From the IMG/VR virus record IMGVR_UViG_3300034200_001443, positions 1 to 64,000 of that record: DNA of 64,000 nucleotides. One strand, 5' to 3'. Of the stretch, positions 5,053 to 64,000 are shown in pieces (position 1 is the stretch's first letter; every line of letters starts with the position of its first letter). This DNA is from a virus. The notes under the pieces are model-generated. The model did no database searches and was not told where the DNA came from. It saw nothing but the letters and a program-made list of their open reading frames with translations. A program made the position numbers and the translations under genes.

Positions 5053-5053
5053 T

Positions 5054-5971: not shown

Positions 5972-5985
5972 AGGAGAGATAGATA

Positions 5986-6156
5986 ATGTTTTCTTATACA
6001 ATTATTGCTGAAAATGGACCTTTAGTTCAAATTTTTTACAGTGACAACGTAATTGATGAAAGTGGCCCTTGGGAATCTTTAGAGTCAGCAACAAACTGGG
6101 CTTCAGCTTATGTAAATAAGCTTAACTCTGGAGCTGTAGAACCACAACTAGATTAA
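5986..6156 (+). CDS. Small hypothetical protein in fibre cluster (56 aa)
   Basis: The reading frame runs from ATG 5986 to TAA 6154-6156, preceded by a strong AAGGAGAG at 5971-5978. The product starts MFSYTIIAENGPLVQIFYSD, is acidic, has no Cys, signal peptide or membrane segment, and has a probable helix around PWESLESATNWASAYVNKL. It follows the propeller gene by 14 nt and precedes the next collagen-like gene by 41 nt. I do not recognise the family; a small fibre chaperone or cap is possible only by position. The strong ribosome site, the spacing and the absence of any overlapping better frame support it being real. Confidence 0.7.
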   Translation: MFSYTIIAENGPLVQIFYSDNVIDESGPWESLESATNWASAYVNKLNSGAVEPQLD

Positions 6157-6197
6157 TAATTATAGAAGTACAATAGGAAAAGAAAGGACGGACCTAA

Positions 6198-6848: not shown

Positions 6849-6917
6849 TTTAGAAAAGTTACTAAGCGTTTTTATAAAAACTATGACTCACTACGTTTTT
6901 GAAAGAGGTACTCGCTA

Positions 6918-9392: not shown

Positions 9393-9426
9393 TAAAATTA
9401 GATTACTAAAAAGGAGTAGAAACTAG

Positions 9427-18117: not shown

Positions 18118-18126
18118 GGGGTCAAT

Positions 18127-18651
18127 ATGGCTATCACTCGGTTGGGGACAGCTAGGCCCAATGCTAACCAAGCTACTGGTATTTATACTTTTTCTGAAAG
18201 TTATTTAATATCGGTAATTGTGGCTAATGTTGCTGCTACCTCCACTCCTATACCAAAATGTGCTATATACGTTGTACCAGCTGGAGCTATAACTGAAACA
18301 TCATATTCTTATATATGCAACAATTTAATTGTTGGTTTTGGTACTTCATTTGAAACATTTAGGTTTGCTGTAAACGCGGGAGATGTTCTAACTGTAAGAC
18401 CTTCTACAGATACTTTAGCTTTTAGCGTATTTGGTATTCTTCAAGATGATGTTGTAGGTCAAGGAGATTTACCTCAAACATTTACCAATAAAGTTATAAG
18501 AGGGGTAAGTAACACTTTATATGTAGACAAAGGTACTAGCGGGCAAAGAAATCCTGCCGCTGAGGTAGGTTATGTTCGTTTTAATATAGAGTACGATACC
18601 CTAGAGGTTAGAACTACTAATGGTTGGAAGAGAGTGACGGTAACCGAATAA
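18127..18651 (+). CDS. Structural protein, paralogue of next gene's N-terminus
   Basis: 174 residues, start set by AAGGGG 7 nt upstream of ATG. It begins [14 protein letters not shown] and carries [13 protein letters not shown] around residues 75-90; the next gene carries the same blocks ([27 protein letters not shown]), so the two N-terminal domains are paralogous, probably a beta-sandwich that docks fibres. The C-terminal 40 residues ([22 protein letters not shown]...[12 protein letters not shown]) resemble a short fibre-tip module. Its stop overlaps the next start (TAATG), so translation is probably coupled. Function is inferred from paralogy and context. Confidence 0.65.
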
Positions 18652-27904: not shown

Positions 27905-28834
27905 TCACTCGCTTCCTTTTTTGTCAGTTGTATCGTAATAAGCATATGGGTCTGCGACCTCATATGCATCGCTAATTGCTTGTTCGGCGGCGCTTCCGTC
28001 GTCAAACATTGGGCAAATAGCGAAGAATTGGCATTTCCATTTGCAATCACGAGTTGGTCGTGGATATGCAACATATGTATGTTCTGCTCCTGTATCAAGA
28101 GCTTTACGAACATTCATAAGATCAGCGATGGTTCCGTGGATTCGATTCCAAAAAGAACGCATTGTAAAAATGTTATGGCGAATTTCTACTTGATCGTAGA
28201 AAGGTGGACGAGCATTTGCTGTGCGCTTTACTTTCTTTAGCATTGTAAAAATGCCACCTTCAGAACGCTCTGCCTCATCAGCCTTAGTTGATTCAAGAAG
28301 CATATATGTCATTACTTGCTCATTCATATGAGCTAAGTTTGCAAAGTCACTAAGAGAGCCACCTACTGTTTTAAAGTCACGAAACATACGAACACCATCG
28401 CCTTTGCGACGAACTCGCATATCAAGCTTTCCCTGTAGCTCAACTTCTCCATTAAACAGTGGAGCAATAATTGTTTCTTCTGTAGAAATCATTTCAAGTT
28501 CTGCATCAATTCCATTTTCTTCAACCCACTGCTCATAGCCTTCAAGCATGATGCGACCCATCTCTGCTTCTTGCTCTAATTGATAAGTGTCTTGAAAATC
28601 AACAAGAAGTAGTTGACGATCTGTCTCAACTAAGTCTGCGTGTGCTTGAATAAGTGGAAGACCTTGAGCGTAGTGAGCATCGAGTGCTGCGTGGATACGA
28701 CTACCAAAAGCTAATGCGCCAGTCATATCTCTGTACTTTGGTTGCAAACGGCGGTAATACGCAAGCCACCATTTACGGCGACAATCTTTAAATGTTTGTA
28801 GTTCAGAATTTGAAAGTCTTACTACATCGCTCAT
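27905..28834 (-). CDS. Cas4/RecB-like PD-(D/E)XK exonuclease with Fe-S cysteines
   Basis: 309 residues. LSNSELQTFKDCRRKWWL (7-24) is the opening of PDDEXK_1 nucleases, with Cys18 as the first cluster ligand; the remaining three are in DCKWKCQFFAIC near residue 270, the Cas4/AddB-type [4Fe-4S] arrangement. The catalytic core shows GEVELQGKLDMRV and then FRDFKT (the D...DxK motif). Role: resecting DNA ends to give single strands for the adjacent RecA-like ATPase and SSB. No CRISPR genes are nearby. Start ATG overlaps the helicase stop as ATGA, so the two are probably translationally coupled. Confidence 0.85.
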   Translation of the reverse strand: MSDVVRLSNSELQTFKDCRRKWWLAYYRRLQPKYRDMTGALAFGSRIHAALDAHYAQGLPLIQAHADLVETDRQLLLVDFQDTYQLEQEAEMGRIMLEGYEQWVEENGIDAELEMISTEETIIAPLFNGEVELQGKLDMRVRRKGDGVRMFRDFKTVGGSLSDFANLAHMNEQVMTYMLLESTKADEAERSEGGIFTMLKKVKRTANARPPFYDQVEIRHNIFTMRSFWNRIHGTIADLMNVRKALDTGAEHTYVAYPRPTRDCKWKCQFFAICPMFDDGSAAEQAISDAYEVADPYAYYDTTDKKGSE

Positions 28835-30633
28835 AGCGCCCCTGCCTTATCATCCTTGAGCAACTTCATTAGTTGATCTTTGTCTCGAACGATTTGTTCG
28901 AAGTTATCTGATTTTGTCTCTAGTACTTGTAAAACTCTTTCTTCAATTGTTCCTTCTGTTACATAATCCATAATAAATATTGAGTCGTGAATTTCACTTC
29001 CAATACGATGCACACGATCTAGTGCTTGTTTATGGTCAACTAGTGACCAAGGTCGTTGAAGCATAACTAAACGTCGGGCTGCAGTCAAGGTAATACCTAC
29101 TCCACCAGCCTGTGCCGTAAACAGAATCCACTTAATACGACCTTCTTGAAAATCATCTACTGCCTTTTGACGCTCATCTTCATTTTGAGCACCAGTAATA
29201 AGTCCGTGAGGGATTTTTGCCTTTGTCATGGCAGCACTTAAAATTTCAATAAGCTGTCTAGATACGGCGCAAACTGCAACTGAGTCATCTCCAAAGTCCC
29301 CATTGCTGATGTCATCCATCAGTGAATCGACTTTACAGGAAGGTTCTGTCAAAACCGTTTTCAACTCACCACTTGATTCATCAACAACCATATCGGCGTA
29401 AGAACTGGCAAACTGTAGCAATCGAGTTGTTTGAGTTAAAATACTTGGAGCGGTTAGCGCATCACCAGACTCAAGCTCAGCAATCATTGTGTCACGCATC
29501 TGCTCATAAGCTTTTCTTTGCTTAGGAGACATTTCTACATCTCTGCGTTCATTTATAACTGGAGGTAAATGTGGAAGCACAACCTTTTTAAGCATACGAC
29601 GCATAACAGGGTTTACAGATTTATAAAATTCGTCTTGCATCATTGGTTTAACGCCAATAACCATCATTCCACCAAAAGCATTGAGCATTATGTCAATCAT
29701 TCGATCAATCCATTTTGTCTTAGATGGCCAATCTTTAGGTGATAGCCAGTGAAGAATAGACCAAAGGTCTACAACATTGTTAGCAATTGGAGTACCAGTT
29801 AAAGCAAAACGAATTTCAGCATCACCTGTTGCGGACCACAAAGCACGACTTTGTTTTGATTTAGGATCTTTAGATCTATGAATTTCATCGGCAACTACAG
29901 CCTTAAAATCAATTGCATTTAACTCTCTTGGATGCACTTCGCAACGAGTTTCGGTGACAGCCTCATTAAGACCGCCACAAGCTTTGCAGTGAACTAGAGC
30001 AATAGAGCCGTATCCAGAAAGCCTTGAGTGAGAGCGTAAAGATTCCCAATTAATAATATAAACATCTGCATCTGAATCAAATTGTTTTTTACGTTGAGCC
30101 GAGCTTCCCTTAATTACTTGAGTCTTAACTCCTCCGGGCCACCATCTAGCAAACTCTCTAGCCCAGTTCTTTTTAAGAGTGTTAGGGCAAACAATTAGGG
30201 CTGGAAATACGTCTTCTCCAGACTCTTGTAAAGCCTTAAGAGCACGAATGGCTTGAGCGGTTTTTCCTAAGCCCGGCTCATCTGCCAATAGAGCCCTACG
30301 AGCCGTTTTAAGGAACTGAACCCCTGCTCTTTGATGAGGAAATAGATCTTCGTCCCCGTCGGCGCTTTCAAGCTCTCTGAGGGCGTTTGAGGGGGTAATA
30401 CGGGTGTTTAACTCATTAGTAGCCCACTCAGTAAGGTTAGGACCAATAGTCAATCCATCTCTAAATGTAGAGCGTAAAGCAAGACAAGTAGTCCAACTAA
30501 GTGGAGCTCTCCAGACTTGGTCCTTAGGGCTCCAGGAAGCCCCTGGAAGGCTCTTACAGAGCTCTTTATAGCGCCAGTCGGTAGTTAGAAGGATGTGCTT
30601 TTTATCGGCATCCACTTCGGCTATTACAGACAA
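28831..30633 (-). CDS. SNF2-family DNA helicase/ATPase
   Basis: 600 residues. TTG 30633 is the likely start, with GAGGGT upstream; GTG 30615 is an alternative. An N-terminal HARP-like region (residues 1-60, LPGASWSPKDQVWRAPLSW) precedes the motor. Motifs: DEPGLGKT (Walker A, Lys124), DEIH (249-252), a SAT-like LTGTPIANN (motif III), FTAQAGGVGITLTAA and QALDRVHRIG (motifs V and VI). A CKACGG...CEVH insert near 215-235 may bind zinc. SMARCAL1-like phage helicases act in fork remodelling or annealing. It follows the RuvC gene after a 74-bp gap and overlaps the Cas4-like gene by 4 nt. Confidence 0.88.
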   Translation of the reverse strand: MSVIAEVDADKKHILLTTDWRYKELCKSLPGASWSPKDQVWRAPLSWTTCLALRSTFRDGLTIGPNLTEWATNELNTRITPSNALRELESADGDEDLFPHQRAGVQFLKTARRALLADEPGLGKTAQAIRALKALQESGEDVFPALIVCPNTLKKNWAREFARWWPGGVKTQVIKGSSAQRKKQFDSDADVYIINWESLRSHSRLSGYGSIALVHCKACGGLNEAVTETRCEVHPRELNAIDFKAVVADEIHRSKDPKSKQSRALWSATGDAEIRFALTGTPIANNVVDLWSILHWLSPKDWPSKTKWIDRMIDIMLNAFGGMMVIGVKPMMQDEFYKSVNPVMRRMLKKVVLPHLPPVINERRDVEMSPKQRKAYEQMRDTMIAELESGDALTAPSILTQTTRLLQFASSYADMVVDESSGELKTVLTEPSCKVDSLMDDISNGDFGDDSVAVCAVSRQLIEILSAAMTKAKIPHGLITGAQNEDERQKAVDDFQEGRIKWILFTAQAGGVGITLTAARRLVMLQRPWSLVDHKQALDRVHRIGSEIHDSIFIMDYVTEGTIEERVLQVLETKSDNFEQIVRDKDQLMKLLKDDKAGAL

Positions 30634-49825: not shown

Positions 49826-51910
49826 TTAGTATTCGATTGCCGCAGCGGTTGCGCCACCTGTTGTGTCACGGAGAGCTGCTGCTACACCGTTCACTGAGAT
49901 GGTTGATGTGACCTTGAGTGACTCAACGCCAACCTTTGCTACACCTTCGAAGGTTTCAACGAACATCTTGTAGTCGTTGGTTCCAACAAGGGTAGAATCA
50001 CGGATAACTCCGAGATCCAATGTACCGCCATCTAGGAACAAGAATGTTCCTTCTGCGAACATGTACCAGACGAATGTGTCTGCGAACTCGTTCATTGCAG
50101 CAGCACCTTGTGCATCGGTGAAATCATCGATGTGGTAGGTGATGTTGATGTTGCGAGATGCGATGTAACCATCGATCTCTGCGGCTGCATTAAGGGTGTT
50201 GTCACCAGGAGCTGCGATAGCAAGATCTGCAACCATTGCATCCTTGATCCAATATGGAGCAATGACGCGAAGTGGAGCATCTGCCTCTAGGCGATGGCGA
50301 CCACGGTAGTTAGCTGCTGCGCGACCTAGTTGTACTAGGAAGTCACGAGCTACACCGATTAGTGATGTTGATGTAACAGCTGTTGACAGTGCTGTCAAGC
50401 GAGTAAGGATTTGTCCTTCTGCTTCACGAGCGTGCTGAATAAGACCAAGCTCATTGTGGCGAGCGATCAATTCAGGATATGCACGAGTCATCAAGTTACC
50501 GAATTGTAGCTGTAGTGTTACAGCATCAGTAGCAACAGTGTTTTCACCAGCAGCAGTTACAGTCAAACTAAGCTTTGCAGCTGGGTTTGGTGTTTCTGCT
50601 GAGTCGTTTGCTGCGGTCCAGATTCCAACAGCGTTAGCGTATGAGCTAAGTACTGGTGGAGTTACGAAGCGGATACCGCCACGGTCAGCCTGGAATTTTG
50701 GAAGTGCATCACGAAGTGGACGAGCAGTGGTACCAAGACCAAAGATGTCGTACTTAACTTCGAATGGTGTTGAATGTCCACCAGATGCAACAAGTGCTTC
50801 AGGACCAGTTACGGCCTGAACCTTTGCCCAGTTTGACTCAGCATCTGTTGTCAGAGTGCGAGCTTCTGGGTATTGAGTAGCGATAGATGCAACGATGTGT
50901 TGCTCTCCATCTCCACCATTTACGCGACGTAGAGCGTGGATACGCTTTTCGAACGCTGAAGCAACATCGATCATGTTGTTCATTGGGCTGCCAGCTGTGT
51001 AGCCAGGAATGTCAGCACCCGCAGTGATTGCCACGGGAGCTACAGATGCCTGTGCAACAGGGCGACGGTCAGCCGGGACCTCGATATTGAGGTTATCTGC
51101 ATTATCAGCAGCGGCGGTCACAGGTGCCTCCATCTTTTCTTGAACCTCTGTAGGTTCTGTTTGTGTTTGGATTGATGCTTCTGCATCTTCTGTAACTTCT
51201 GCAACTGCAGCTTCTGAATCTGCAACAACTGCTGCATCTTCAACAACTACTTCTGCTTCTGTTACAACTGCTTCAACAGCTTCTGCTGCTTCAACAGGTG
51301 CTGCTTCTGCGGCTGGAGCATCTTCTGCACCATCTGCAACAACAGCGGTTGCCTCTACAGCGGCAGCTGCTTCGGTAACAACTTCGTTTGATTCTGTCGA
51401 AAGTTCGACGGTCTTATCTGCATCGATTGACGCTTCGGACATTTTTTCCTCTTCCTTTTTCTTTTCCTCATCCATCACTGGAGTTGGTGCTTCTTCTTCC
51501 ATTGGCATTTCTTCTGCCATAGGAGCTTCGGCTGCAGGAACTTCTTCAGAAGGCATGTCTTCTTCTTTTTTATCTTCAGCCATTGCAGCTTCAGATTCAG
51601 AAGTCATCTCTTCTTTCTTTTCCTCTGAGGAATCGGATTCCATATCCTTTTCTTTGTCTTCGCCGTACACACGAGAGGCTGCTTCTGCTGCCCGCTGTGC
51701 GAGCTCTTGAACCGCGGCCTCGCGTCGCTTGAATTCACCTTGAACGGTGCCAAGCATGTCGGCTAATGACGACATTGCGTCAACTGATTGCGGAGTAAGG
51801 TCATCTTTTTCTACAGACTCAAATTCTTTGATTATCTTGTTCTGTAACTCAGTAACTTGATCGTCAGTGAGTTCAGCTAGTGAATCAAATGATTCTTTAA
51901 TTTGGTCCAT
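49826..51910 (-). CDS. Major capsid protein with fused N-terminal scaffold
   Basis: 694 residues; AAAAGGAACAGTA before ATG. Residues 1-95 are helical (LTDDQVTELQNKIIKEFES, FKRREAAVQELAQRAAEAASRV); residues 95-290 are extremely acidic and low-complexity (runs of Glu, Ala and Lys), as in delta/scaffold domains that are removed on maturation. From about 297 an HK97-like capsid body of about 400 residues follows (ARPLRDALPKFQADRGGIRF, VTLQLQFGNLMTRAYPELIARH, MFVETFEGVAKVGVESLKV). The junction carries AITAGADIPGYTAG (Ile295), similar to motifs in the neighbouring protease. A structured leader (51911-52078) precedes the gene. The usual separate scaffold gene is not seen. Confidence 0.85.
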   Translation of the reverse strand: MDQIKESFDSLAELTDDQVTELQNKIIKEFESVEKDDLTPQSVDAMSSLADMLGTVQGEFKRREAAVQELAQRAAEAASRVYGEDKEKDMESDSSEEKKEEMTSESEAAMAEDKKEEDMPSEEVPAAEAPMAEEMPMEEEAPTPVMDEEKKKEEEKMSEASIDADKTVELSTESNEVVTEAAAAVEATAVVADGAEDAPAAEAAPVEAAEAVEAVVTEAEVVVEDAAVVADSEAAVAEVTEDAEASIQTQTEPTEVQEKMEAPVTAAADNADNLNIEVPADRRPVAQASVAPVAITAGADIPGYTAGSPMNNMIDVASAFEKRIHALRRVNGGDGEQHIVASIATQYPEARTLTTDAESNWAKVQAVTGPEALVASGGHSTPFEVKYDIFGLGTTARPLRDALPKFQADRGGIRFVTPPVLSSYANAVGIWTAANDSAETPNPAAKLSLTVTAAGENTVATDAVTLQLQFGNLMTRAYPELIARHNELGLIQHAREAEGQILTRLTALSTAVTSTSLIGVARDFLVQLGRAAANYRGRHRLEADAPLRVIAPYWIKDAMVADLAIAAPGDNTLNAAAEIDGYIASRNINITYHIDDFTDAQGAAAMNEFADTFVWYMFAEGTFLFLDGGTLDLGVIRDSTLVGTNDYKMFVETFEGVAKVGVESLKVTSTISVNGVAAALRDTTGGATAAAIEY

Positions 51911-52078: not shown

Positions 52079-55000
52079 TTAGGTAAGTAAGCGAAGAAGC
52101 TTTGCCATCTGGGAAGATATTTCTGATTGATTATAGAGATCGCTACCTGAAATAAACTTCTTCAAACCCTCTGTTGCTTCGTCAGCATCTTCTTGACCAA
52201 TCTTGTCCTCTACACGAGTAATCATGTCTTTCATGAGGTCTCTAAGAGCTGGAGGAACGTCTGAGAAGCGAATCTTTTCTGCATCTTCACCGAAGGCAAA
52301 AGGTAGGTTAGCAATAACCTTTCCAAGCTCTCCAGCGCTAATTCGAACGTTCTCTAAAGCTTCAGCATTTAGTGCTCCAGAGTCCAATCGGTCAATAATT
52401 CCGAGTAAATCTCCTGCTGCTTTAGCTGCTCCAGCGTAATCGCCAGTGCTATCAAAGTTTTCAGCTTCTGCAATTTTATCTAGGACACGGTCTAAACCAG
52501 ATGTTCCAAGATCCTGCTTGATACGGGCTAATACCTGACGGAACTTGCCTGAGGCATCACGAGGTTGAGTTTCAGGGGTGTATTTAGCACGGCCATCTTC
52601 ATCACGAGAGATACCATCATTTTCTTGATCTTTACGAGCTTTTGCTTCAGTTTTTAATGCTTCAATTTCTTCATCTGTAAGGTCAGCAATCTCTTCTTCT
52701 ATAGGATCTTCAGCAAATTCTTGTGTTGAAAAAACTGCTTCTGAATTCATAGAAGCTGCTGCAAAAGTTGCTCGAGTTTTCATAGTCTCGACAATTTCAT
52801 CTAAATTAGAGGCTGCACCTTTCCAACTTTCTGGAATGATTTCTTCTCTATTAAGACCAATAGCACGTTTCATGATATGACGTTTTACCTTGCCACGGCT
52901 TCCTGGCCTTGAGCGACCATAAGCACGGATAGCATTTTTTAAATCCTGAGGATTGCGGATAGGAAAGGATCCATCTGGAAGTGCTTTTCCTTCTTCAGCA
53001 AGACGCATACGAGTCTTACGAGAGATAACTCCCATTTCATTTTCTGGGTCATCATCGAACATCTCGGTCATATAGTCATAATCGAGATCCGAGTCTACTT
53101 TTATTTTTGAAACTTTTGCAGCAATTAAAGCTTTTTGCTCTGATAATTGTGCATTTTGAAAAGCTTGAATACGAGAACGAGCATCATTTGCTGAAGCAAC
53201 TAAAGCTTCTTTTTGTGGACGCTCTAAAGCTTCAAGACGACCCTTCATTTCTAAAAGTGGATCGCTTTTTAGTTGTGCAAGAACACTTGCTCCAGCAGCA
53301 ACAAGAGCCATAACAGATCCTGATGCAACACGAGCACGAGCAATTGGGAATCCTGGAACATTTACCTGACATACAGCAACTAGTTCTAAAGAATTTTTAA
53401 TTGGGCGCCAGTCACCAGATGGTGCTGATGCACGAAGTGCACGAATTTGTTCTGGTGTAGATCCTGGACGAACTGATCCAGCTACCCAAATACCATAGGC
53501 ATCTTCTCCAGCATGTACATCTGCAATTGCAGACGCTGTGTCGTCGTAGTGACGAACTGCTTCAGAGGCTGATGCTTCTAGTGATGCGTGTCCCCCCGCA
53601 AGAGTTAATTGCCCTACTGGTACATCTGTACCATCATCTGTACGAACTACACCTGTGTGAAAATATGCATACTTGCTACGACTGCGTGGAGGCTTGGTTC
53701 CCATACTCATGCCGATATGATCAACATTCCAAGCTGCGATATGACCGAATACACGACCATCATCATCAACAGTGAGTGGTGTTGCAGTTGTTAATTTTGG
53801 ATCGTTAAACCACTCTTTTGGTGGATTAACTGGAATTGCACCTGCGATCATTCCGCAAGCAACAAGAGCCGAAGCATCGAGAGGGTTTACTCCTTCGACA
53901 TATACGCCGTCAGGGATATTCACTTCTTCCTCTTCTCCGCCGAGCTCATCGGCGAGTTGAATTGAGCATTCTTGGAAAGCTGGCTTCGGCACCAAAGTCA
54001 CAGCCATGACTCGTGCTTTCTTGATCTTTATTTTACCGCTTTCTACCTTGGTGTCAGAAGTTTCTTTAACCTCTTGAACCTCTTCGTCACCCTCAAATTG
54101 ATCGAGATCTGCCGAAACTCCACGAATAAAGCCACCACGAACTAGTCGTTCAGCTTCTTGTCCATATGCGCCTTTATCAAAGTAGCCTTTAGCATTTCCT
54201 ATTCCGCCATCTACTCTTTCCATTACAACAATTTTTCCAACTACAACCGACCCATTATGGCCTTCTCCTGTTTGAATTTGCCATAAAAGAGGCAGTGGAA
54301 GATCTCTTATAGAAAGAGCATCTTTAACAATAACTCTGCCATCTCCAGACTCGACTTCTTCTGGGATAACTAGAGGAATATAGAACTCTGACCCTTGGTC
54401 ATAATCCATGTCGCCACCAGCGGTCATAACTCTAGCTTTAGCATCTGCTGCTCTAGCACGCATAATAAAAGTGCTCAAAAGTTCATCATAATTATGCAAA
54501 GTATCGACACTAAATGATGTCATTTCACGATTCTTTTTATCGCCTGGCCAGTAACCATTTGCTTCTTTATGACGAAGAGCGCAGTAGCCCTTTGCACGAG
54601 GTCCCATGTATTTAGCTAATTGACGATAGCAACGGGTCCAGTCTCCTGGAGTTCTCCAACGAATTTTTGCTGCACCTTTACCGTATAACCAATAACGACG
54701 AAGCTTTTCTGCTTGACCGCGGTTACGATCTAGTCCTCCAGCAGCAGTCATTGACTCGCCTTTGTTGTCTACTTGCTCTAAAACGTCAACAAGAGTTTTG
54801 TCATCTAAGACAACCACTGGTGGAGGTGTTGCACTACGAAGATCATTTAATATCTGGGAATCAAGTATCCATTTACCATCTTTACGAGTGTAGGTAGCTG
54901 GTTCAATTGTTTTATTAGATGCAGGTACAAGAGCAACTAAATCCATAACAGCTTGCGGGTCATCTGGTGAAACTATTGCCATATGAAGAATAGGCACATC

Positions 55001-56851
55001 TGAAGTTTCAGGAGTCATTGCTTTTTCTTCTCCAGCAGAAGCTTTTAGAGGACGACCTTTAGAGTCAAGTTTAGGAGATTTAATTCCTCGTTCTTCAGTA
55101 ATTTTTTTTGTTTTTTCTGGATCTACAAAAGGATTATATTTACGACGAGTATCTGGTCCAGATTCAAGCCAAGGCTTAAGTATAGGAAGGTTGTATGCAT
55201 TTACTTCCTTAGTCCAATTAGTAAACTTTTCTGGGTAATACTTGTATAAAGGATTGTCTTTAGAAACTTCTTTTTCTACGTTTTGAGGTTGTTGAGGAAC
55301 TGCAGTTTGAGGAGTAGCTCTTAAATTAGAACTTGCAGGTGCTTGAGTTGGTTGTGGATCTGGAGACAGTCTTTGATCTGAAACCCATTGAGGATAATTA
55401 GTTAGCATTAAATTTAAATTTTGTGCGTTTAGTGAAGGAAGAGTTCCTGGCATACGGATAGGTGAATCCATAGGAGTACGAGGCTCACCAAGAATTCCAG
55501 ATGTATCTAATTCTCCTTCTGCAACTGAAGTAGGAATAGGAACGTATGACTCTGCTGGTTCCGTCATATTTGCAGCAATACTAATTAAATTTCCGTTATC
55601 AAGTTCTACTTGAGCAGTTTGTGTTTTAGCGTCAAGAGCACGAATGTTTCCTTGATATTCAGGACGGCCACCGATAATTACACGGCCACCCATCTTTGCA
55701 AACTTACCTGTTTTATCCCTTAACTGAGCAGATGCTTTTTGAGAGCGTTCTTCTGGAGTATAAATACCATCACCTTCACCAGAACTTGGAGTCTCTCCTG
55801 CAGCAGTTAAGCTGTCATCAAAGGAGTCCCATGAATCAGACATTTCATCTTGAAAAGCTAGATCATCTAACAAATCCATATCAATATCTGGGTAGGCTTC
55901 TTGATAAATTTTGCTTTCTTCTGGGTATAGCTTTTCTACCTTATGTGCAATAAATGGTTCGTTGTCGATAAGTGCTGCAATAAAAAGTGCAGTTTCTGTA
56001 TCTACTGGAACGTGTCCACAAGGTGTTTTATCGTTAGGGTTATCAAGAATTTTGTCGTACATAGACATATCAGCGTCTGGCATACCCATATCTTCCCAGT
56101 CGCCATCGTCCCACACATAAATGTGCCCTGCTGGTTCAATTCGATATAAGCGATCAATGCCAGATCCGTCTAAGCGAATACGAGCAAAAAACTCAATAAC
56201 ATTGTCTTCAGGCATTGTCTTTGAAACAATAAAAGAATCGTAATTAATTCTTTTTGGCATTTCAAAATCCATAGGATCTAATCCGCCAGCAGTAATTGAA
56301 TTTGATTTAGCCTTTTTATTTTCACGGTTTACAATTGCAGTAGCCCAAGACTTAGCCGCATCCCCACCCCAAAGAGCCCAAGCGATGCGGCCATTTGATG
56401 GGTAATTCTTTTGTCCCGGCTTGTAGCCAGTTCCCTTTTTATCTACTTCATGACGTGGGAAGTATTTGGCAATGTGTCGGACTTTTCTAATTCCGATTTG
56501 GCCACCCCGAGCAAGCGTGCGAGCGGTATTAAGCCCAACTGATGTTCCTCCTCTATCTTCTTCTTTGCGCCACTCAAGGCCGCGCTTTGCCTCAGCAACT
56601 ACTGAGTCAGGAATCGTATACATACGATCATTATTTGAAAAAACTTTAATATCTAAATTTGTAAGAGCTGCTGCTGCAAGTTCTACAGATGCTCCACTTG
56701 GACGGTTATTTTCTGAATCCCAATTAACTGCTGCAATAAGAGGCTCTTTAACGTCTAAAGCAACAACAAGGTTTTTTGACTCGTCTACTACAGCACCAAA
56801 AGTTTCAGATATGAAGAGAAATCTAGAGCCGTTACGACCAACGTAATCCAT
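52079..56851 (-). CDS. Capsid maturation protease polyprotein, 1590 aa
   Basis: Start at ATG 56851 (MDYVGRNGSR), overlapping the previous TAA (TAATG) with GAGGAGAG upstream; a 22-codon extension lies inside the upstream gene and is rejected. Domains in order: a helical domain (RHEVDKKGTGYKP...WALWGGDAAKSWA, about 85-170); an acidic domain; a Pro-rich linker region (about 350-560); a domain with NRGQAEKLRRYW...GDWTRCYRQLAKYMGPRAKGYC (703-770); the actinophage-type maturation protease (about 811-1250; GHIAAW with His1037, and GGHAS at 1086-1090); a DUF6582-like helix domain (SFPIRNPQDLKNAIRAYGRS); and a helical C-terminus. Short [ILM]TA[AG]G motifs sit at positions 186, 348, 701 and 809, close to domain borders. 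The protease would cut scaffold and capsid precursors during head maturation. Confidence 0.82.
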   Translation of the reverse strand: MDYVGRNGSRFLFISETFGAVVDESKNLVVALDVKEPLIAAVNWDSENNRPSGASVELAAAALTNLDIKVFSNNDRMYTIPDSVVAEAKRGLEWRKEEDRGGTSVGLNTARTLARGGQIGIRKVRHIAKYFPRHEVDKKGTGYKPGQKNYPSNGRIAWALWGGDAAKSWATAIVNRENKKAKSNSITAGGLDPMDFEMPKRINYDSFIVSKTMPEDNVIEFFARIRLDGSGIDRLYRIEPAGHIYVWDDGDWEDMGMPDADMSMYDKILDNPNDKTPCGHVPVDTETALFIAALIDNEPFIAHKVEKLYPEESKIYQEAYPDIDMDLLDDLAFQDEMSDSWDSFDDSLTAAGETPSSGEGDGIYTPEERSQKASAQLRDKTGKFAKMGGRVIIGGRPEYQGNIRALDAKTQTAQVELDNGNLISIAANMTEPAESYVPIPTSVAEGELDTSGILGEPRTPMDSPIRMPGTLPSLNAQNLNLMLTNYPQWVSDQRLSPDPQPTQAPASSNLRATPQTAVPQQPQNVEKEVSKDNPLYKYYPEKFTNWTKEVNAYNLPILKPWLESGPDTRRKYNPFVDPEKTKKITEERGIKSPKLDSKGRPLKASAGEEKAMTPETSDVPILHMAIVSPDDPQAVMDLVALVPASNKTIEPATYTRKDGKWILDSQILNDLRSATPPPVVVLDDKTLVDVLEQVDNKGESMTAAGGLDRNRGQAEKLRRYWLYGKGAAKIRWRTPGDWTRCYRQLAKYMGPRAKGYCALRHKEANGYWPGDKKNREMTSFSVDTLHNYDELLSTFIMRARAADAKARVMTAGGDMDYDQGSEFYIPLVIPEEVESGDGRVIVKDALSIRDLPLPLLWQIQTGEGHNGSVVVGKIVVMERVDGGIGNAKGYFDKGAYGQEAERLVRGGFIRGVSADLDQFEGDEEVQEVKETSDTKVESGKIKIKKARVMAVTLVPKPAFQECSIQLADELGGEEEEVNIPDGVYVEGVNPLDASALVACGMIAGAIPVNPPKEWFNDPKLTTATPLTVDDDGRVFGHIAAWNVDHIGMSMGTKPPRSRSKYAYFHTGVVRTDDGTDVPVGQLTLAGGHASLEASASEAVRHYDDTASAIADVHAGEDAYGIWVAGSVRPGSTPEQIRALRASAPSGDWRPIKNSLELVAVCQVNVPGFPIARARVASGSVMALVAAGASVLAQLKSDPLLEMKGRLEALERPQKEALVASANDARSRIQAFQNAQLSEQKALIAAKVSKIKVDSDLDYDYMTEMFDDDPENEMGVISRKTRMRLAEEGKALPDGSFPIRNPQDLKNAIRAYGRSRPGSRGKVKRHIMKRAIGLNREEIIPESWKGAASNLDEIVETMKTRATFAAASMNSEAVFSTQEFAEDPIEEEIADLTDEEIEALKTEAKARKDQENDGISRDEDGRAKYTPETQPRDASGKFRQVLARIKQDLGTSGLDRVLDKIAEAENFDSTGDYAGAAKAAGDLLGIIDRLDSGALNAEALENVRISAGELGKVIANLPFAFGEDAEKIRFSDVPPALRDLMKDMITRVEDKIGQEDADEATEGLKKFISGSDLYNQSEISSQMAKLLRLLT

Positions 56852-57561
56852 TATTTGCTCTCCTCTGTAACTGGTCCACCAGCGACCCATGCACGACATG
56901 TGCGGGATGCAGCGCATTTAAAGTCGAATGCTTCACAATACCCTAAATCTCCAGCTTCGATTGAGCCCCAAGCATCATTTCCTTCTTCATTTCCAAGCCC
57001 AGAAGCAATACAATCCAGCATCCTTGGGGTCTGAATAAACACGGCACAATTGCCGCAAAGTTGTTTCTTTGCAGTCTCTTTATCGACAGACCATTCATCT
57101 GCAATTGCTTCCCAATACTCATCGTTTGGTTCTAGAGGATTAAGGGGTCCATACATAGCGGTGTCAATAGCGTTTTTACGGTTATCAAGATTAATGCCAA
57201 TATCTTGAGTAGCTGGAGGGCATCCTTCAGATGTCTCAACAGCTGCTGTCATCGATCTACCTTCGATAGAATAAGCTACTTCATACTTTTTAACATTGTC
57301 ATATGTTAAAGGAGTTTTAGTAGCACTGGCATTATCAAACATTTCTGTAACTATTTTGTAGTCTTCTGGGAGAATGTCCATAATAGACATATTTTCCAAA
57401 CTCTCATCGTCTTCGGATAGCAGTTCCCATTGATTGTTTATTCGAGTAAAAATTCCGTAATCTTCTGTATAAAAAATTTGTTGAAGAATAATGTTGTCAC
57501 CATTTGAGTAGACTAATGAGACACCCTCTTTAGGGTACTCTTTAGCGGAAGAGATCTTCAT
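56851..57561 (-). CDS. Hypothetical protein with six-Cys C-terminal domain (Fe-S candidate)
   Basis: 236 residues, start overlapping the 42-aa gene (ATGA), stop overlapping the protease start (TAATG). The N-terminal 100 residues are a mixed alpha/beta domain (EGVSLVYSNGDNIILQQIFYTEDYGIF). At residue 104 the motif MTAAVE resembles the putative cleavage motifs of the next gene. The C-terminal domain has CGNC, then LDCIAS, then GYCEAFDFKCAASRTCRAW, a cysteine layout reminiscent of high-potential iron-sulfur proteins (HiPIP), plus one upstream Cys in EGCPPATQ. Fe-S binding is inferred only. Being in the head operon, it may be a minor head protein. Confidence 0.6.
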   Translation of the reverse strand: MKISSAKEYPKEGVSLVYSNGDNIILQQIFYTEDYGIFTRINNQWELLSEDDESLENMSIMDILPEDYKIVTEMFDNASATKTPLTYDNVKKYEVAYSIEGRSMTAAVETSEGCPPATQDIGINLDNRKNAIDTAMYGPLNPLEPNDEYWEAIADEWSVDKETAKKQLCGNCAVFIQTPRMLDCIASGLGNEEGNDAWGSIEAGDLGYCEAFDFKCAASRTCRAWVAGGPVTEESK

Positions 57562-57686
57562 AGTTCCTCCATTTCGTCTTCATCTGCCTCGACAGCGTTA
57601 GGGTCTGACTCGGCAATATCCATCAACTTTTTATAAGCTGCGGCAACGAGCTCAGCATACTTTTCTTTATCTGACTTAGTAACCAT
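57558..57686 (-). CDS. Small acidic hypothetical protein, 42 aa
   Basis: MVTKSDKEKYAELVAAAY is the start, ending DEDEMEEL. ATG 57686 overlaps the stop of the 2100-residue gene (TAATG) and follows GAAAGGACTGTATA; its TGA overlaps the next ATG (ATGA). One amphipathic helix followed by an acidic tail, with no recognisable domain. The tight overlaps on both sides are good evidence for translation, and coupling may be its main purpose. Confidence 0.65.
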   Translation of the reverse strand: MVTKSDKEKYAELVAAAYKKLMDIAESDPNAVEADEDEMEEL

Positions 57687-60600
57687 TATACAGTCCTTTC
57701 ATCTTTGTTTTCAGGTTCAGCTTTTTTCTCTGCAGCAATCTCTTCTCCAGTTTTACCTTCACTTCCAACTCCGCTGCCAATTGGATTGCCGTCTTCATCG
57801 ACAGGACCTTCTGGCTCTTCTTGCTTTCCAAGCATATGGTCAACTGCTCTTTGAGCTTGTTTTGCTGCTTTAACGATCATCTGTGGATTATTTTTTACAG
57901 CTGGTAGCCAAGACTTGGCATATGCTGCAACGTTTTCGAAGTCAATTTTTACACCAAGACGACCTGCAACAAGTGCAACGGTAATTTCTGCAATAAGCTC
58001 TTCTTCACCACGGCTTTCTAAGTGCTTTCCATAATTGTCCAGAAGTTCTGTTCTATCCAAACGTGACCTATGACCAGTGCTATGCGCTAATTCGTGAACA
58101 AGAGTTTCAAAGAATGATTGCTCAGACTTGAACTGCTCACGTTGTGGAAGCTTAATAATGTCATCTATAGGGCTATAGAAAGCTTGATCTTGAGCTACAA
58201 ATAGAATTTCTGGCTTGTCTTTGTATGCTTCAAGAATTGCTGTTTCGCCTTCTGTAACTGGAATTGGTTCTCCCTTTACAATTGCTGGAAGATCAATATT
58301 CTCAGCTTGCTCTACGTTAAAGACTGTACGAATTGTAGGTGGTCGATAGACACGAACTTTTTCTTTTGTACCGTCTGGCTTTTCAACCTCTTTAAATATT
58401 TGTGGCCAGTGGATAACTTGAGTTCCCTTTTCACCACGACGAATATTTCCGCCAAGTTTTTCTGCTTTATTGTATGTAAGGAATCTGTTGTCTGTCCAGC
58501 CATTCTTTTCCATAGCTGCCCATAAAACAAGGATGTTTGATCCTTCATAAGTTTTACCTGTAGCAACGCTAGTTGGAAGGAATCCTCCACCAGTCCAAGG
58601 CTTTTGCCATGGGACAGTTCCTCTTTCGATTGCTTCAATAATTGCATTAGCAACTTTTTCAACAGCTGGATCAATTTTTTCAGCTGTTTTAACAGTGCTT
58701 TCATTAAACTCATCTTCAGTTACTTTTTCAGTAGGAAGAGCCATTCCCATAGCTGTTTCTACGGCAGTTGGCTTCTTTGGAGACTCGTCTTCATCTTCAG
58801 TGTATTCTTTAATCCAATTAAGTGGACCTGGATCTAACTTTTTCTGTGCACGAGTAAGTGCAACATATGCAAGACGAAGTTCCTCGTCTACTGGCATTTC
58901 AAGTTCGCCAGTTTTTTTGTTTGTACGAGGACCCCAGAAGTCATCAAAAATACGAACGTTGTTCCACTGTAAGCCCTTTGACTTATGTGCAGTGGTTACA
59001 ATTACATCAATTTCATCTTCTTCTTCACCTGCATCAGGTGCAAAACCTCCTACACCTCTGCGTAGGTCATTAATAGCTTTTTGACGATCTAAATCGTCTT
59101 CAACTTCTTTAAACCACTGCTTACCTGTCGCATCCCAACGGAAATTTTGATCTTTAATTTTGTCCTTACCTTTAAATGTTCCATTACCAGAAAGACGAAT
59201 TGCTTTATCTTTAACTTCATAATTAATACCTTCTCCAATAGAACCCTTAGCTCCATCTTCAGCTTGATCTAAAGTAATCTTCTTAAAATCAGATGATGGT
59301 TTTAGGTCTTTCTTTTCAGACTCAGGTGTAGCAACCTTTACTCTGCTAAGAATATCTTTAATAGATCCAATTCCATTTTGTACAACTAAATCGTATAGGG
59401 CTTTTACTTTTCTACCTTCGCCCTTTTCAACAGCTTCTTTTACCTCAGACCAATTTTTAAATTCTGCAAGATCTGGGTGCATTGTTGGCTTTTTAAACTT
59501 TGTCTGGTCTCCTATAAGCCATGAAGCACTAAGAACAAGGCTTTCTAATTCGTCTTTTGTTCCTTTTGTAATTCCAACAACCTTGCCAGCATCAAGAAGT
59601 TCAATCATTGCTCGGAATCCACCAGAGTTAGTACGGGTGATTACAACATCTGGATCTTCCATTCCATCTACTACTTCACCTTTTGACCCAGAACCTTCAA
59701 CGCGGTACTTAGAATCAAGTTGAGTAAGGAAGCGATTTGCCATTCCAGCAATTTCAGGGCCAAAACGGAAAGATTGAGTTAGTGGAAGATCCCATTTAGC
59801 TGTTGTCCTATCTAACTGGTCTTCTGCTCCACGGAATGCATAGATTGCTTGGTTTCCATCGCCAACATAAACTTTTTGAATAGTTTGATCGGCAATAACC
59901 TTTGCAATAACTGGGTTAATGTCTTGAGCTTCATCAAAAAAGATTACATCTGCTGGAGTTTTCATTCCAGAGCCAATAGAACCTAAATCTGGATTGCTTA
60001 ACGCCCAAATTTTTGTAATGTGAGCATTGTTGATACCAAATACTCCTGCAGGACTGTTTAGATCGTCCCAATAAGCATTGGCATACTCTACAAATGAGCG
60101 AGGAACTTCATCAAGCTCTTCTGTAAAATGTTTAGCACCAAGCTCATCGTCTGCGCTAATTGAAAAGTTATTAACTGCTTGCTTAATTATTGCTGGGATT
60201 TCTCGTGAAGAAAGACTTACTTCTACACCCTTAAGTTTTACACCAGTTGGTTTGATTCCAAGCTCGTCTGCAATATCTTCAGCACGAAGCTTCATATTTG
60301 CAGTTTTACCCTTTTGGTTTAAAAATTTTTGACGAATATCGTTGCTTACACCTTGGAAAGCAATTGAATCACCTGTGCGTGATTCAACATTTTTAGGCAT
60401 CTTGCCTTCTGCTTCCATCTGTACTGTTTTGTTAAATGCAATATAAACAATCTTTTTCTTAGGTTGTTCCTCAAGAAGTCGACGAGCAGCAAGTGTGAGT
60501 GTGCTTGTTTTACCTGTACCAGCTAAGGCACGAACAACGACGTTATCACCAGTCATAATTGCTGTAACTACATTTCGTTGCTCGGCTGTAGGAGGGAATT

Positions 60601-63600
60601 TTTCTCCTGCATATTCGTAGTTATCTTCTGGAAGAGCGTTAGGAACAGCTGAACCTTCTTCAGAAAGCGGTGCCATGTCATAAACTTCAGCTCCCATGTC
60701 TGGAAGTGCCATACCCATTGGAGTTTCTGGAGTATCTTCAGGTTTTCTCCAAACCTTTACCTTATCTGTTAAAAGGTAAACGTCGCCGCCGCCTCCTCTA
60801 GAACCTCTAGTTTTTTTGCCAGTATAAACTTTGTCGTCTCTAATCATCATCTTATGAATCGTAGTTTTTCCACTAGGGTCTAGCTTGTCTCCAGGCTTAA
60901 GATCCTTTGCATCAACTATTGATGAAACTAAACCTCTGGTAGTAGGACCTTCTGGAATAGACATTCCCATTCCCATATCTTCCACACCAGAAGAAAGGAT
61001 GTTATCTCCATCATCAAGGTTAAATACTTCTAAGCTGCTAGCACTAACATTTTCTCTTCTCTTAGTGTCATCATATCTGACCTTGAGATAATTTTTGTAT
61101 TTATTTTTTCCGTACTCTTCCCAGAAAACCGACACTGTTCCAGTTCTTCCATTTTTAACGTTTCTAACTCTATCTCCAGCTTTTATGGCTACGTTGTTAG
61201 CGTCTATGTGGAACTTAGAAGAGCCTTCTCGTGCAATAACCTGATCTTTAATTGTTTCGTCAATATTAAGATCCTTAATTGCTTCTTTAACTTTTTTACC
61301 AGACTTAGCTCCAGATGTAATAGTTTCAATAGCATCTGCAACAACTGAAGCCGCTTGAGGGTCTGTAACCTCTTGACCCTTGACTGGCTTTTGTTTTTCT
61401 GAAATTTTTGGAGTAGGGTCGCTTGGTATTGGTTTTGGCAGAATGTCTTTAATATCTTCAGGTTTAATTTTGCCAATAGAAGATCTACGACGAACTACTC
61501 CTCTAAGTACTTTTCCTCTAGCCCAACCAACTCCTGGAGTTGAAGAAGGTTCTACACGTTCTGAAAAAGGTTTTCCATCTCTTAATCTCTTGCGATAAAT
61601 AATAAGTTTGTCAGAGTTTTCTGGGTCAATTTGAATATCTACAACTTCAACTAATCCTGATGTACCTTCAAGAATATCTCCAATTTGTAGTTCGTCAACT
61701 ACAACAGATCCTCCACCATTAACTGCATAGGTATTCTCATCATCAAGTGCCCAAGCTTCGTTAATAATGTCTCCGAATATAGAAACGTGAGCGTAATCTG
61801 TTACTTTATCTGTAGGTCCATCTGAACCAAAGGTTGATGGTGAAACAGCTTCAGGTTGATCTCCTTGGGCTTTAAAGTCAGCTAAATCTTTTTCATATTG
61901 TTCAAGTTTACTTTCATATTCTGCCTTACGCAGTTCTGGCTCAAATTCTCTATTTTCTGGTTTCATTTTCTTAAGAAGATCTTCTAAAACTATTGGAAGA
62001 ACTTCAGAATCTGTCACGGCATTGTGCCACTGCTTATCTTTTGCATCAACTCCAGCCTTCTTTGCAACAGTTACAAGAGAACTACCTCTAGCAACACCTT
62101 TATTAGCAGCATCTATTTCAATAGTGTCAATAACTCCACCGAAAGAATACTCAATTCCAAATTTTTTGGCCCACTTTTCAAAAGTGTTTGTATCAAATTC
62201 TGCGTTATGAGCAACTAAAATTGCGTCTTTTCCAATAAATTCTGCAAATTTACGAAGCTGATCTTCAATGCTTGGTTGAGTAGATAACCACTCGTCATCA
62301 ACTTTTACACCTTTATTGTCAATAACTTTTTCTGGATTTAGAGCTCTATTGCCATTTTCATCAAGGTAAGGCTCTACTATTCTAGTTTTTCCTACATACC
62401 GTTCTTTTGTGTAGTAGTAGTCATCTAGAGGTTGTCCAGGATTCATAAAGAGATCTATTTCGCCAACTTTTTTACCTTTTTCATATAAAGATGCAGCAAG
62501 TTGAATAGGTGCATCTGGATCATCATAATCAAAACGACCAGTGCCTACCGTTTCAAAGTCAAAGTAAACAACTCTTTCGTCTTTAAGAGCTTCCCAAATA
62601 GCAGCGCCATCTTTTAGTTTTGTTAGTTTTTCAGCTGACCCGAAAAATGCTGGTCTGTTTGGACGATCAGGCTTGCTTAAAGCAGGAGATACTGATGGTT
62701 TGTAATCCTTACCTGCTTCTCTGCGGGCTTCTTCAATTTCAGCTCTCTTTTCAAAATATTCTTTGCCCTTTAAAGTTCCATTTGGAATTCTTTCAATTTC
62801 TGGTTTGTCACCAGATTTTGGCATATTAGCTTCAGACTCTCCTCTGATAGCGCTAATTATTGCTCCTTCATTCCAATCATTCTCTTGGATTGTATGTCCA
62901 GGATAGTAACCACGAACAATTGCTTTTATTTCTACTTCGCCATTGTCTGGTCTTACATATTCTCTCGTTTCTTCAAGAACTTCTGTTACAACAAAGAAAC
63001 GTTCTAATTCTTTAGTTTTTTCATTTACGCTAAATGTAATATCTCCTGGTTTAAGGTCCCTAGCTTTAACCGAAACAATAGAAGCTCTAGGAGCTTGAGC
63101 AGTAGATACAGACTCGACGTCTGTTGGAGGAGTCCATGTTGATTTACGACGATCCAACTCTTCATCGTATTTGGCTCTTGCTTCATTGTAGCCTGGGCTA
63201 TCCCCTCTAAAATCTTCACGCTTTGGTTGACGAAGTTCTGGTAAGTCTCCCTTTTCTGGAGGAGTTGCACCACGATAAACATCAAACAATGTGTCATCTG
63301 CCCAAAGCTTGCTTGATTGTTCAACAGATCCTGGGTAGTAGCCGCTAACAATTGATGCTGGTACTTCTACGCCTTTAACTGTCTTCTTATACCCACCTTC
63401 AACATTTGTAATTGTGAAGAAATCATTGACAGTTACATCGCCTGGTTGAAGATCTGCGCCACGAACTGAGGTCTTAATTGGCTTTGAAGCTTCTGGAGTT
63501 ACTTCTTCAGTTGTAGAAGTTTCTTCAGTAGGAACCTCTACTGACTCTGCTGGTCTCTCACCAAGAACAATTTCATCAATTATTCTGGTAACTTCATCTA

Positions 63601-63988
63601 GCTCATCTTTAAGAGCTTTTTTCTGAGCTGGAGTTGTTTCTTCGGAAAGATCTGCTCTATCAATCTTTCTTTGTATTTTGCGACGTCTGTCAACAAGTGC
63701 TTTAAGAACTTCTTTATCTTTAACGGAAAGAGGAGTTGGTTTTTCTTCAGCTACTTTTGGAGTCTCTTCTTCGGTTGAAGTTTCTTCAGGCTTATCTTCA
63801 GATTCTTCGAGAAGTTTGTCTTCACGCTCTTTACGTTTTCTAGCACGAGCATCAGCCAGCTTGCGACTTCTTTCTTTTCGCTCGTTTTGATCAGCAATAA
63901 TGGCATCCATCTCGTCATAATAAAGATTTAACATATCAATCATGTCTTGATCAGAAAGATTTTCTAGTTTTTTCTTATAATCTTTCAT
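57686..63988 (-). CDS. Giant multidomain protein: DEDDh exonuclease, UvrD-like helicase, ArdC antirestriction peptidase
   Basis: At least 2100 residues; the frame is open to the window edge, no ribosome site precedes ATG 63988, and the true start may lie outside. Domains in order: charged coiled coil (1-160); two beta modules with ARDLKPGD-type starts (about 170-400); a DEDDh exonuclease (Asp477, Glu479, Asp599, His655, Asp660; VVYFDFETVGTG, AHNAEFD, HNAVTDSE); more small beta modules to about 1090; an SF1A UvrD/PcrA-type helicase (AGTGKT with Lys1160; FFDEAQD 1351-1357; GDGNQAIYAFRGA; TTAHKSKGLQW; YVALTRAQKK); an ArdC-like ssDNA-binding domain (GTVPWQKPW) and zincin HELAHSTGH (His1965, Glu1966, His1969). 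MGMALP-type motifs flank the helicase at 1091 and 1747. It sits with head genes, so packaging and injection with the DNA is my inference. Confidence 0.82.
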   Translation of the reverse strand: MKDYKKKLENLSDQDMIDMLNLYYDEMDAIIADQNERKERSRKLADARARKRKEREDKLLEESEDKPEETSTEEETPKVAEEKPTPLSVKDKEVLKALVDRRRKIQRKIDRADLSEETTPAQKKALKDELDEVTRIIDEIVLGERPAESVEVPTEETSTTEEVTPEASKPIKTSVRGADLQPGDVTVNDFFTITNVEGGYKKTVKGVEVPASIVSGYYPGSVEQSSKLWADDTLFDVYRGATPPEKGDLPELRQPKREDFRGDSPGYNEARAKYDEELDRRKSTWTPPTDVESVSTAQAPRASIVSVKARDLKPGDITFSVNEKTKELERFFVVTEVLEETREYVRPDNGEVEIKAIVRGYYPGHTIQENDWNEGAIISAIRGESEANMPKSGDKPEIERIPNGTLKGKEYFEKRAEIEEARREAGKDYKPSVSPALSKPDRPNRPAFFGSAEKLTKLKDGAAIWEALKDERVVYFDFETVGTGRFDYDDPDAPIQLAASLYEKGKKVGEIDLFMNPGQPLDDYYYTKERYVGKTRIVEPYLDENGNRALNPEKVIDNKGVKVDDEWLSTQPSIEDQLRKFAEFIGKDAILVAHNAEFDTNTFEKWAKKFGIEYSFGGVIDTIEIDAANKGVARGSSLVTVAKKAGVDAKDKQWHNAVTDSEVLPIVLEDLLKKMKPENREFEPELRKAEYESKLEQYEKDLADFKAQGDQPEAVSPSTFGSDGPTDKVTDYAHVSIFGDIINEAWALDDENTYAVNGGGSVVVDELQIGDILEGTSGLVEVVDIQIDPENSDKLIIYRKRLRDGKPFSERVEPSSTPGVGWARGKVLRGVVRRRSSIGKIKPEDIKDILPKPIPSDPTPKISEKQKPVKGQEVTDPQAASVVADAIETITSGAKSGKKVKEAIKDLNIDETIKDQVIAREGSSKFHIDANNVAIKAGDRVRNVKNGRTGTVSVFWEEYGKNKYKNYLKVRYDDTKRRENVSASSLEVFNLDDGDNILSSGVEDMGMGMSIPEGPTTRGLVSSIVDAKDLKPGDKLDPSGKTTIHKMMIRDDKVYTGKKTRGSRGGGGDVYLLTDKVKVWRKPEDTPETPMGMALPDMGAEVYDMAPLSEEGSAVPNALPEDNYEYAGEKFPPTAEQRNVVTAIMTGDNVVVRALAGTGKTSTLTLAARRLLEEQPKKKIVYIAFNKTVQMEAEGKMPKNVESRTGDSIAFQGVSNDIRQKFLNQKGKTANMKLRAEDIADELGIKPTGVKLKGVEVSLSSREIPAIIKQAVNNFSISADDELGAKHFTEELDEVPRSFVEYANAYWDDLNSPAGVFGINNAHITKIWALSNPDLGSIGSGMKTPADVIFFDEAQDINPVIAKVIADQTIQKVYVGDGNQAIYAFRGAEDQLDRTTAKWDLPLTQSFRFGPEIAGMANRFLTQLDSKYRVEGSGSKGEVVDGMEDPDVVITRTNSGGFRAMIELLDAGKVVGITKGTKDELESLVLSASWLIGDQTKFKKPTMHPDLAEFKNWSEVKEAVEKGEGRKVKALYDLVVQNGIGSIKDILSRVKVATPESEKKDLKPSSDFKKITLDQAEDGAKGSIGEGINYEVKDKAIRLSGNGTFKGKDKIKDQNFRWDATGKQWFKEVEDDLDRQKAINDLRRGVGGFAPDAGEEEDEIDVIVTTAHKSKGLQWNNVRIFDDFWGPRTNKKTGELEMPVDEELRLAYVALTRAQKKLDPGPLNWIKEYTEDEDESPKKPTAVETAMGMALPTEKVTEDEFNESTVKTAEKIDPAVEKVANAIIEAIERGTVPWQKPWTGGGFLPTSVATGKTYEGSNILVLWAAMEKNGWTDNRFLTYNKAEKLGGNIRRGEKGTQVIHWPQIFKEVEKPDGTKEKVRVYRPPTIRTVFNVEQAENIDLPAIVKGEPIPVTEGETAILEAYKDKPEILFVAQDQAFYSPIDDIIKLPQREQFKSEQSFFETLVHELAHSTGHRSRLDRTELLDNYGKHLESRGEEELIAEITVALVAGRLGVKIDFENVAAYAKSWLPAVKNNPQMIVKAAKQAQRAVDHMLGKQEEPEGPVDEDGNPIGSGVGSEGKTGEEIAAEKKAEPENKDERTV

Positions 63989-64000
63989 AGAAGAGCGAAT

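Follow-up and report, generated by a model that had tools for sequence, protein, structure and literature searches.

We found that a virus in the IMG/VR collection (record IMGVR_UViG_3300034200_001443, 134,380 bases) encodes, among its head genes, a single giant protein of 3,527 amino acids that combines a DEDDh exonuclease, a UvrD-type helicase, an ArdC-N domain, and a zincin peptidase. We analyzed positions 1-64000 of this record, a stretch of 64,000 nucleotides that we call the window. The giant protein is probably packed in the phage particle and delivered with the DNA, as suggested by the position of its gene, by fusion of its relatives to a prohead protease, and by a small module that it shares with other proteins encoded at the same place. 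Its open reading frame (ORF) occupies positions 57686-68269 of the record on the minus strand. The C-terminal ~2,100 codons lie in the window (57686-64000), where the open frame leaves the window edge, and ~1,420 N-terminal residues, together with the portal gene, fall beyond it and were unseen in a first reading of the window's letters (the earlier note). Because contigs L018, L019, and L024 each hold the ORF intact and 100% identical, the giant is not an accident of assembly, and an artefactual origin is ruled out. In some relatives (L026, L027, L028, and L088), the gene is broken into at least two ORFs.

The long frame that the earlier note described, with an exonuclease, a UvrD-type helicase, and an ArdC-like domain with HELAH, is real, and its domains have Pfam matches above the cut-off. 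All of them are encoded on the minus strand. The exonuclease (residues 1897-2105; 61955-62581) matches RNase_T (E = 5e−13, best stretch residues 1992-2090) and PolC-type profiles and has the catalytic residues; its relatives are PolC-type/DnaQ exonucleases, which are polymerase proofreading domains. The N-terminal part of the helicase (residues 2555-2816; 59822-60607) matches UvrD-helicase (E = 2e−15, residues 2562-2816), and its C-terminal part (residues 3084-3150; 58820-59020) matches UvrD_C (E = 9e−9, residues 3084-3145). Human FBH1 is the best solved relative of the helicase (E = 7e−28), outscoring Rep, UvrD, and PcrA. Next come ArdC-N (residues 3200-3304; 58358-58672), which matches ArdcN (E = 6e−31, residues 3203-3304), and the zincin peptidase with HELAH (residues 3359-3471; 57857-58195), which matches MPTase-PolyVal (E = 2e−29, residues 3359-3471). 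This C-terminal module covers residues 11-284 of the 297 residues of the solved ArdC (6i89; E = 7e−44), and it has the architecture of the ArdC family, in which ArdC-N is followed by a zincin with HExxH and a downstream Glu. The stretch N-terminal to the exonuclease consists mostly of acidic residues and has no Pfam match at an E value of 0.1 or better.

The exonuclease, helicase, ArdC, and peptidase domains look catalytically intact. The DEDDh set D, E, D, H, and D is kept in 32, 32, 36, 35, and 35 of 36 distinct sequences, respectively, the remainder being gaps, and HExxH is kept in all 30 peptidase sequences. The motif set of superfamily 1 (SF1) helicases is complete in the giant (Walker A, DEAQD, GDGNQ..R, SFR, TAHKSKG, and LTRA). 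Across 49 helicase relatives, the Walker A Lys is present in 49 and the DEAQD Asp in 48; most SF1 motif positions are kept in 44 to 49, and Lys 3096 is variable (Lys in only 19). The enzyme domains are under purifying selection. Simple Nei-Gojobori counts of nonsynonymous and synonymous substitution (dN/dS), made between the giant and relatives L020, L023, and L025, gave ratios of 0.06-0.22 in the exonuclease, helicase, ArdC-N, and peptidase versus L020 and L023 (helicase, 0.026/0.34 and 0.12/0.65; exonuclease, 0.38/1.7 and 0.044/0.46).

The giant gene stands in a run of head genes. On the minus strand, the order is portal (phrog_776), a 381-amino-acid gene (DUF5824), the giant, a 236-amino-acid gene, a 1,612-amino-acid protease-type gene, and the major capsid protein gene. 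The 381-amino-acid gene stops 3 bases upstream of the giant. The 236-amino-acid gene (56851-57561, minus strand), whose position is conserved in relatives, begins 124 bases past the stop codon of the giant and shares 67 bases with the beginning of the 1,612-amino-acid gene. The earlier note had placed the giant immediately upstream of, and coupled to, the capsid protease gene; it does lie among the head genes, but the 236-amino-acid gene intervenes and the tight spacing is on the 381-amino-acid side. The 1,612-amino-acid protein (52079-56917, minus strand) owes its protease label to PHROG head-maturation-protease matches, although the top-ranking PHROG there bears the name portal protein, and its Peptidase_S78 match (53951-54175) is below the cut-off (E = 9e−4). 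The major capsid protein (49826-51910, minus strand; phrog_777) matches actinophage capsid proteins in tblastn. The order from the 381-amino-acid gene to the capsid gene is repeated in viral contigs, with the portal gene upstream where the contig extends there.

Homologues of the giant are not restricted to replication operons. Three scans of viral contigs for the UvrD domain, one of them keeping the best 80 of 111 and with loci merged per contig, gave 82 UvrD-bearing contigs: 69 with long ORFs (at least 1,000 amino acids), 12 with short stand-alone ORFs, and 1 with an ORF truncated where the contig stops. Of the 69 long-UvrD contigs, 60 have a portal, protease-type, or capsid profile match in the fetched DNA, compared with none of the 12 stand-alone ones; in a second lineage, described below, the protease-type match covers only a ~75-residue part. 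The domain orders among the 69 are not counts of independent events, since contig ends truncate many of the ORFs and near-identical contig copies are included: 28 have exonuclease-UvrD-ArdC-N-peptidase in a single ORF (3 of these with a second ArdC-N-peptidase pair), 18 have exonuclease-UvrD without detected ArdC (12 with the N-terminal part and the module, 4 with neither, and 2 with both N-terminal regions), 10 have UvrD without the other domains, 7 have peptidase-UvrD, 3 have UvrD-exonuclease-ArdC-N-peptidase, 2 have UvrD-ArdC-N-peptidase, and 1 has ArdC-N-peptidase-UvrD. A scan of genome contigs with the helicase-ArdC alignment returned 409 pattern matches, none encoding relatives, and it is little informative because the patterns are short and non-specific.

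The same arrangement recurs in a second lineage that uses another portal family (phrog_2662). Of three loci checked there, L066 and L093 have the portal gene immediately before the UvrD-bearing ORF, and L079 has it one ORF farther upstream. The ORFs of L066 and L093 that encode UvrD, ArdC-N, and MPTase also have a Pfam Peptidase_S78 match close to their N termini. Among the 15 records searched, 8 have Peptidase_S78 above the cut-off in one ORF with UvrD and MPTase; G004 has it in the ORF directly upstream; G000, G001, G011, G012, and G014 have it in a separate ORF of ~1,500-1,700 amino acids (above the cut-off only in G001); and it was not found in G013. The L066 ORF (positions 4316-18535; 4,740 amino acids) has matches to the prohead protease, sigma-70 region 4, KTSC, UvrD, exonuclease, ArdC-N, and zincin, and its sigma-like part raises the possibility that a transcription factor is packaged.

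A short segment common to the proteins encoded in the slot between portal and capsid genes was first revealed by BLAST among them. A profile of this ~75-residue module (A1), built from 12 segments and searched against 11 whole phage records at an E value of 0.1, gave 17 matches in 9 records (all but those of GMA2 and Satis), every one between the portal and capsid genes; the module lies at 55586-55747 in the protease-type gene of the window. Twelve of the 17 are the training rows, and each of the 5 new ones falls in the protein encoded immediately before the capsid gene; in 2 of 4 named phages, that protein is annotated as a capsid maturation protease. The chance of five such placements is ~5 in a million by a hand estimate from slot lengths, a figure that is overstated, the five proteins being mutually related. 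Over all loci, which overlap, the module is present in 109 of 14,784 ORFs, of which 102 carry another slot domain; the remaining 7 are 6 slot proteins of named phages and 1 ORF directly after a giant. The module had no match among solved structures. Its dN/dS is 0.02-0.03 versus L020 and L023. Versus the more distant L025 it is 0.69/1.1, far less conserved than the enzymes, so the constraint on the module is visible solely among close relatives. Taken with the slot common to two lineages with different portals and the protease fusion, the shared module makes the association of the giant with the head, which the earlier note had read from gene order, well supported by genomics.

The contents of the slot vary. 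In 60-residue blocks, L020 is 92-100% identical to the giant in the helicase (83% in residues 3001-3060) and 37-73% in the exonuclease, and for L023 the values are 82-97% (exonuclease) and 55-93% (helicase). These patterns are opposite, and therefore the parts have been exchanged independently. In the Arthrobacter phages Mimi and Atuin, too, UvrD lies inside a very large protein, which in these two phages is encoded directly after the portal gene (gp77, 2,709 amino acids, and gp71, 3,113 amino acids, respectively); the UvrD domains of Mimi, Atuin, and actinomycete plasmid giant proteins are 36-39% identical to that of the giant. An ADP-ribosyltransferase match was found in Sixama gp75 and, alongside UvrD, in Atuin gp71. 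Among 11 slot proteins scanned, 5 had no Pfam match at an E value of 0.01. We tentatively suggest, as a possibility that we hold at less than even, that the portal-capsid slot may be a general cargo bay, in which the ~75-residue module or a fused prohead protease would act as a loading tag for swapped effector enzymes. At that same tentative level, the effectors may include the FBH1-type helicase, DEDDh exonuclease, ArdC, ADP-ribosyltransferase, NUDIX, and 2H/Acb1-like enzymes. If true, this would provide a sequence rule for recognizing phage-injected proteins.

Three further slot or multidomain ORFs were noted. Gordonia phage GMA2 Orf10 (L015, 7981-10632) has a C-terminal Acb1/2H-like match below the Pfam cut-off and also matches a PHROG named head maturation protease; its annotation as 'putative structural protein' was not counted as evidence. 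It is a candidate packaged enzyme against the cyclic-oligonucleotide-based antiphage signaling system (CBASS). A weak PI3/PI4-kinase-like match, below the cut-off, lies toward the C-terminal end of gp82, the slot protein of Microbacterium phage Pumpernickel (L011, 7903-14610). In L064, a 6,094-amino-acid ORF (911-19192) has KTSC, exonuclease, UvrD, NUDIX, and ADP-ribosyltransferase matches in its last 4,594 amino acids.

Judged by its sequence, the giant is a member of the phage 'polyvalent proteins' (Iyer et al. 2017, PMC5512222). Like them, it is very large and multidomain, carries ArdC-N and MPTase, and is encoded among the virion genes of a portal-bearing phage. The class combines at least two disparate activities in one polypeptide, here exonuclease, helicase, ArdC-N, and peptidase; its typical domains, ArdC-N and MPTase-PolyVal, are both present above the Pfam cut-off; and its phage type lies near late virion genes, here those for portal, protease-type, and capsid proteins. 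In the available part of that paper (PMC5512222), polyvalent proteins are predicted to be packaged and injected, ArdC-N is called rare in phage-type members, and assemblin-like peptidases are reported always at C termini. Its main text places UvrD in actinomycete plasmid proteins and, in the portion available, does not mention a DEDD exonuclease. Compared with the proteins described in that portion, the giant is a phage-type member with an SF1 UvrD helicase and a DEDD exonuclease, and its relatives carry the prohead protease at the N terminus, not the C terminus. The combination was called undescribed in the earlier note; the class has been known since 2017, and the claim is fair for the combination. 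As far as the open-licence literature shows, the novelty lies in the domain combination and its phage setting, and a prior description elsewhere is possible. With the giant, the known range of phage polyvalent proteins comes to include a set of DNA helicase and exonuclease.

Several known systems resemble the giant in part. The N4 virion RNA polymerase is of similar great size; its cargo is an RNA polymerase, whereas that of the giant is a set of DNA-processing enzymes. Like the giant, it has an MPTase domain, and it is packaged uncut and injected according to the available part of the polyvalent-protein paper (PMC5512222). The same part (PMC5512222) describes P1 DarB and DdrB as head-linked proteins of the antirestriction operon; DdrB has an MPTase domain, as does the giant, and DarB joins an adenine methylase to an SNF2-type helicase, neither of which has a Pfam match in the 3,527-amino-acid giant. 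ArdC of plasmid R388 (PDB 6i89 and 6sna; PMC7213743) resembles the giant's ArdC-N and zincin module nearly end to end. It is a plasmid protein of ~300 amino acids, expressed in the recipient according to the part of that report available (PMC7213743), whereas the giant has it as the C-terminal module of a phage protein. Relation to Gabija or another defense system was also considered: GajB gave only partial matches to the giant, among the best 25 of 31 matches, and these and the match to a Cas-associated DEDDh profile are expected from shared folds. GajA was not found among the best 25 of 31 giant matches or in the two neighbors scanned.

We propose that the giant would be made late, from the head operon, and captured into the prohead; the part responsible for capture is probably the N-terminal one, which bears the small module common to slot proteins. 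It may be cut by the prohead protease, its own zincin peptidase, or both. It would then be ejected with the phage DNA into the next host, where its DNA-directed domains would act in the first minutes: ArdC-N would bind exposed single strands and, like plasmid ArdC, counter restriction; the FBH1-like UvrD motor would travel on DNA and strip bound protein or open ends; and the DEDDh exonuclease would trim 3′ ends. We consider late synthesis, prohead capture, and co-ejection of a DNA-directed enzyme set with antirestriction to be somewhat likelier than its contrary; what we infer is the packaging, the processing, the ejection, and all that the domains would do in the next host. A guard that unwinds, trims, and shields the DNA, as the earlier note had it, is a guess that suits domains that look catalytically intact. 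Because slot cargo is exchanged between related phages, however, a single unvarying guard role probably does not account for everything that the protein does.

Several observations weigh against the proposed packaging and antirestriction role. The slot protein of DSL-LC01, the nearest named phage (capsid 75% identical), has 3,289 amino acids and lacks all three domains; its similarity to the giant is N-terminal only (30% over residues 17-327, plus a 96-residue stretch at residues 446-541). Unlike the giant, the Mimi and Atuin slot proteins have no exonuclease or ArdC Pfam match. GMA2 has no module match at an E value of 0.1, and the profile also failed to detect the module in 7 contigs that share the enzyme order. 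ArdC is known from conjugation, in which single-stranded DNA enters, whereas tailed phages inject double-stranded DNA. Moreover, R388 antirestriction did not need the peptidase activity of ArdC, according to the available part of the report (PMC7213743). Structure predictions for residues 1-730 (7 sequences) and 2330-3527 (8 sequences) had low confidence (mean predicted local distance difference test scores of 51.6 and 41.5, respectively) and were not used; being uninformative on the folds named in the earlier note, they leave these backed instead by sequence matches to the solved ArdC, FBH1/UvrD, and PolC-type exonuclease. A search of the open-licence literature found no virion proteomics of this phage or of a UvrD-bearing relative. 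Finally, the contrast with the 12 stand-alone UvrD ORFs, which have no portal, protease-type, or capsid profile match, is weaker than it appears because profiles derived from this phage group would not detect unrelated portals.

A packaged giant may also have as its main job the start-up of phage DNA metabolism and not antirestriction, an explanation that overlaps with the proposed role and that we regard as a substantial minority possibility. It could open and resect DNA ends, clear RecA or other proteins, or assist recombination or circularization, tasks to which we give the same minority standing. The identity of the best solved helicase relative favors this explanation, as FBH1 remodels recombinase filaments, and so does the kinship of the exonuclease with polymerase proofreading domains. 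On a Pantoea plasmid, a zincin/ArdC-type gene lies ~1.2 kb from a UvrD gene and beside a TraI-domain gene (three similar entries were found, and a fourth has a zincin and DUF1281 without UvrD), and on a Streptomyces plasmid UvrD lies within a gene of about 26 kb. This context links the helicase with ArdC in elements entering a new cell; the side-by-side Pantoea genes also fit a start-up role. The end-to-end match of the ArdC module to a proven antirestriction protein argues against it, and the many relatives that have the helicase without detectable ArdC are compatible with either a start-up or an antirestriction function.

It is unlikely that the giant stays behind as a late assembly or packaging-stage factor that works within the prohead or the infected cell, perhaps by processing the DNA presented to the terminase. 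The portal, protease, and capsid neighbors and the prohead-protease fusion in relatives would suit such a factor, but the cargo varies under the same head genes (ADP-ribosyltransferase, 2H/Acb1-like, and NUDIX), which better fits injected effectors, and the class has precedents in the N4 RNA polymerase and DdrB (available part of PMC5512222). That the giant is an ordinary replication or repair helicase fortuitously near head genes is very improbable: a replication-operon role is likely for the 12 stand-alone relatives, one of which, in Streptomyces phage Satis, lies beside DnaQ-like, primase, and polymerase genes, but it is disfavored for the long forms by their head-gene matches, and a distinct gene of this phage encodes an SNF2-type helicase (28831-30633).

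The giant offers concrete, testable candidates: one for a module that loads proteins into capsids, and one for a helicase-driven means of opposing restriction or end-degrading nucleases early in infection. The cultured relatives, the Arthrobacter phages, make virion proteomics and mutants feasible. The findings also call for caution, as some actinophage 'DNA helicase' annotations may denote probable head-associated effectors, not replication enzymes.

Elsewhere in the window, a 2,896-amino-acid ORF on the plus strand (9427-18117) has only two Pfam matches, whose meaning is doubtful, and a 628-amino-acid ORF (3166-5052) has collagen-like repeats. The G+C content of the window is 40%, versus 53-56% in the stretches of four named relatives (L008, L010, L011, and L015).

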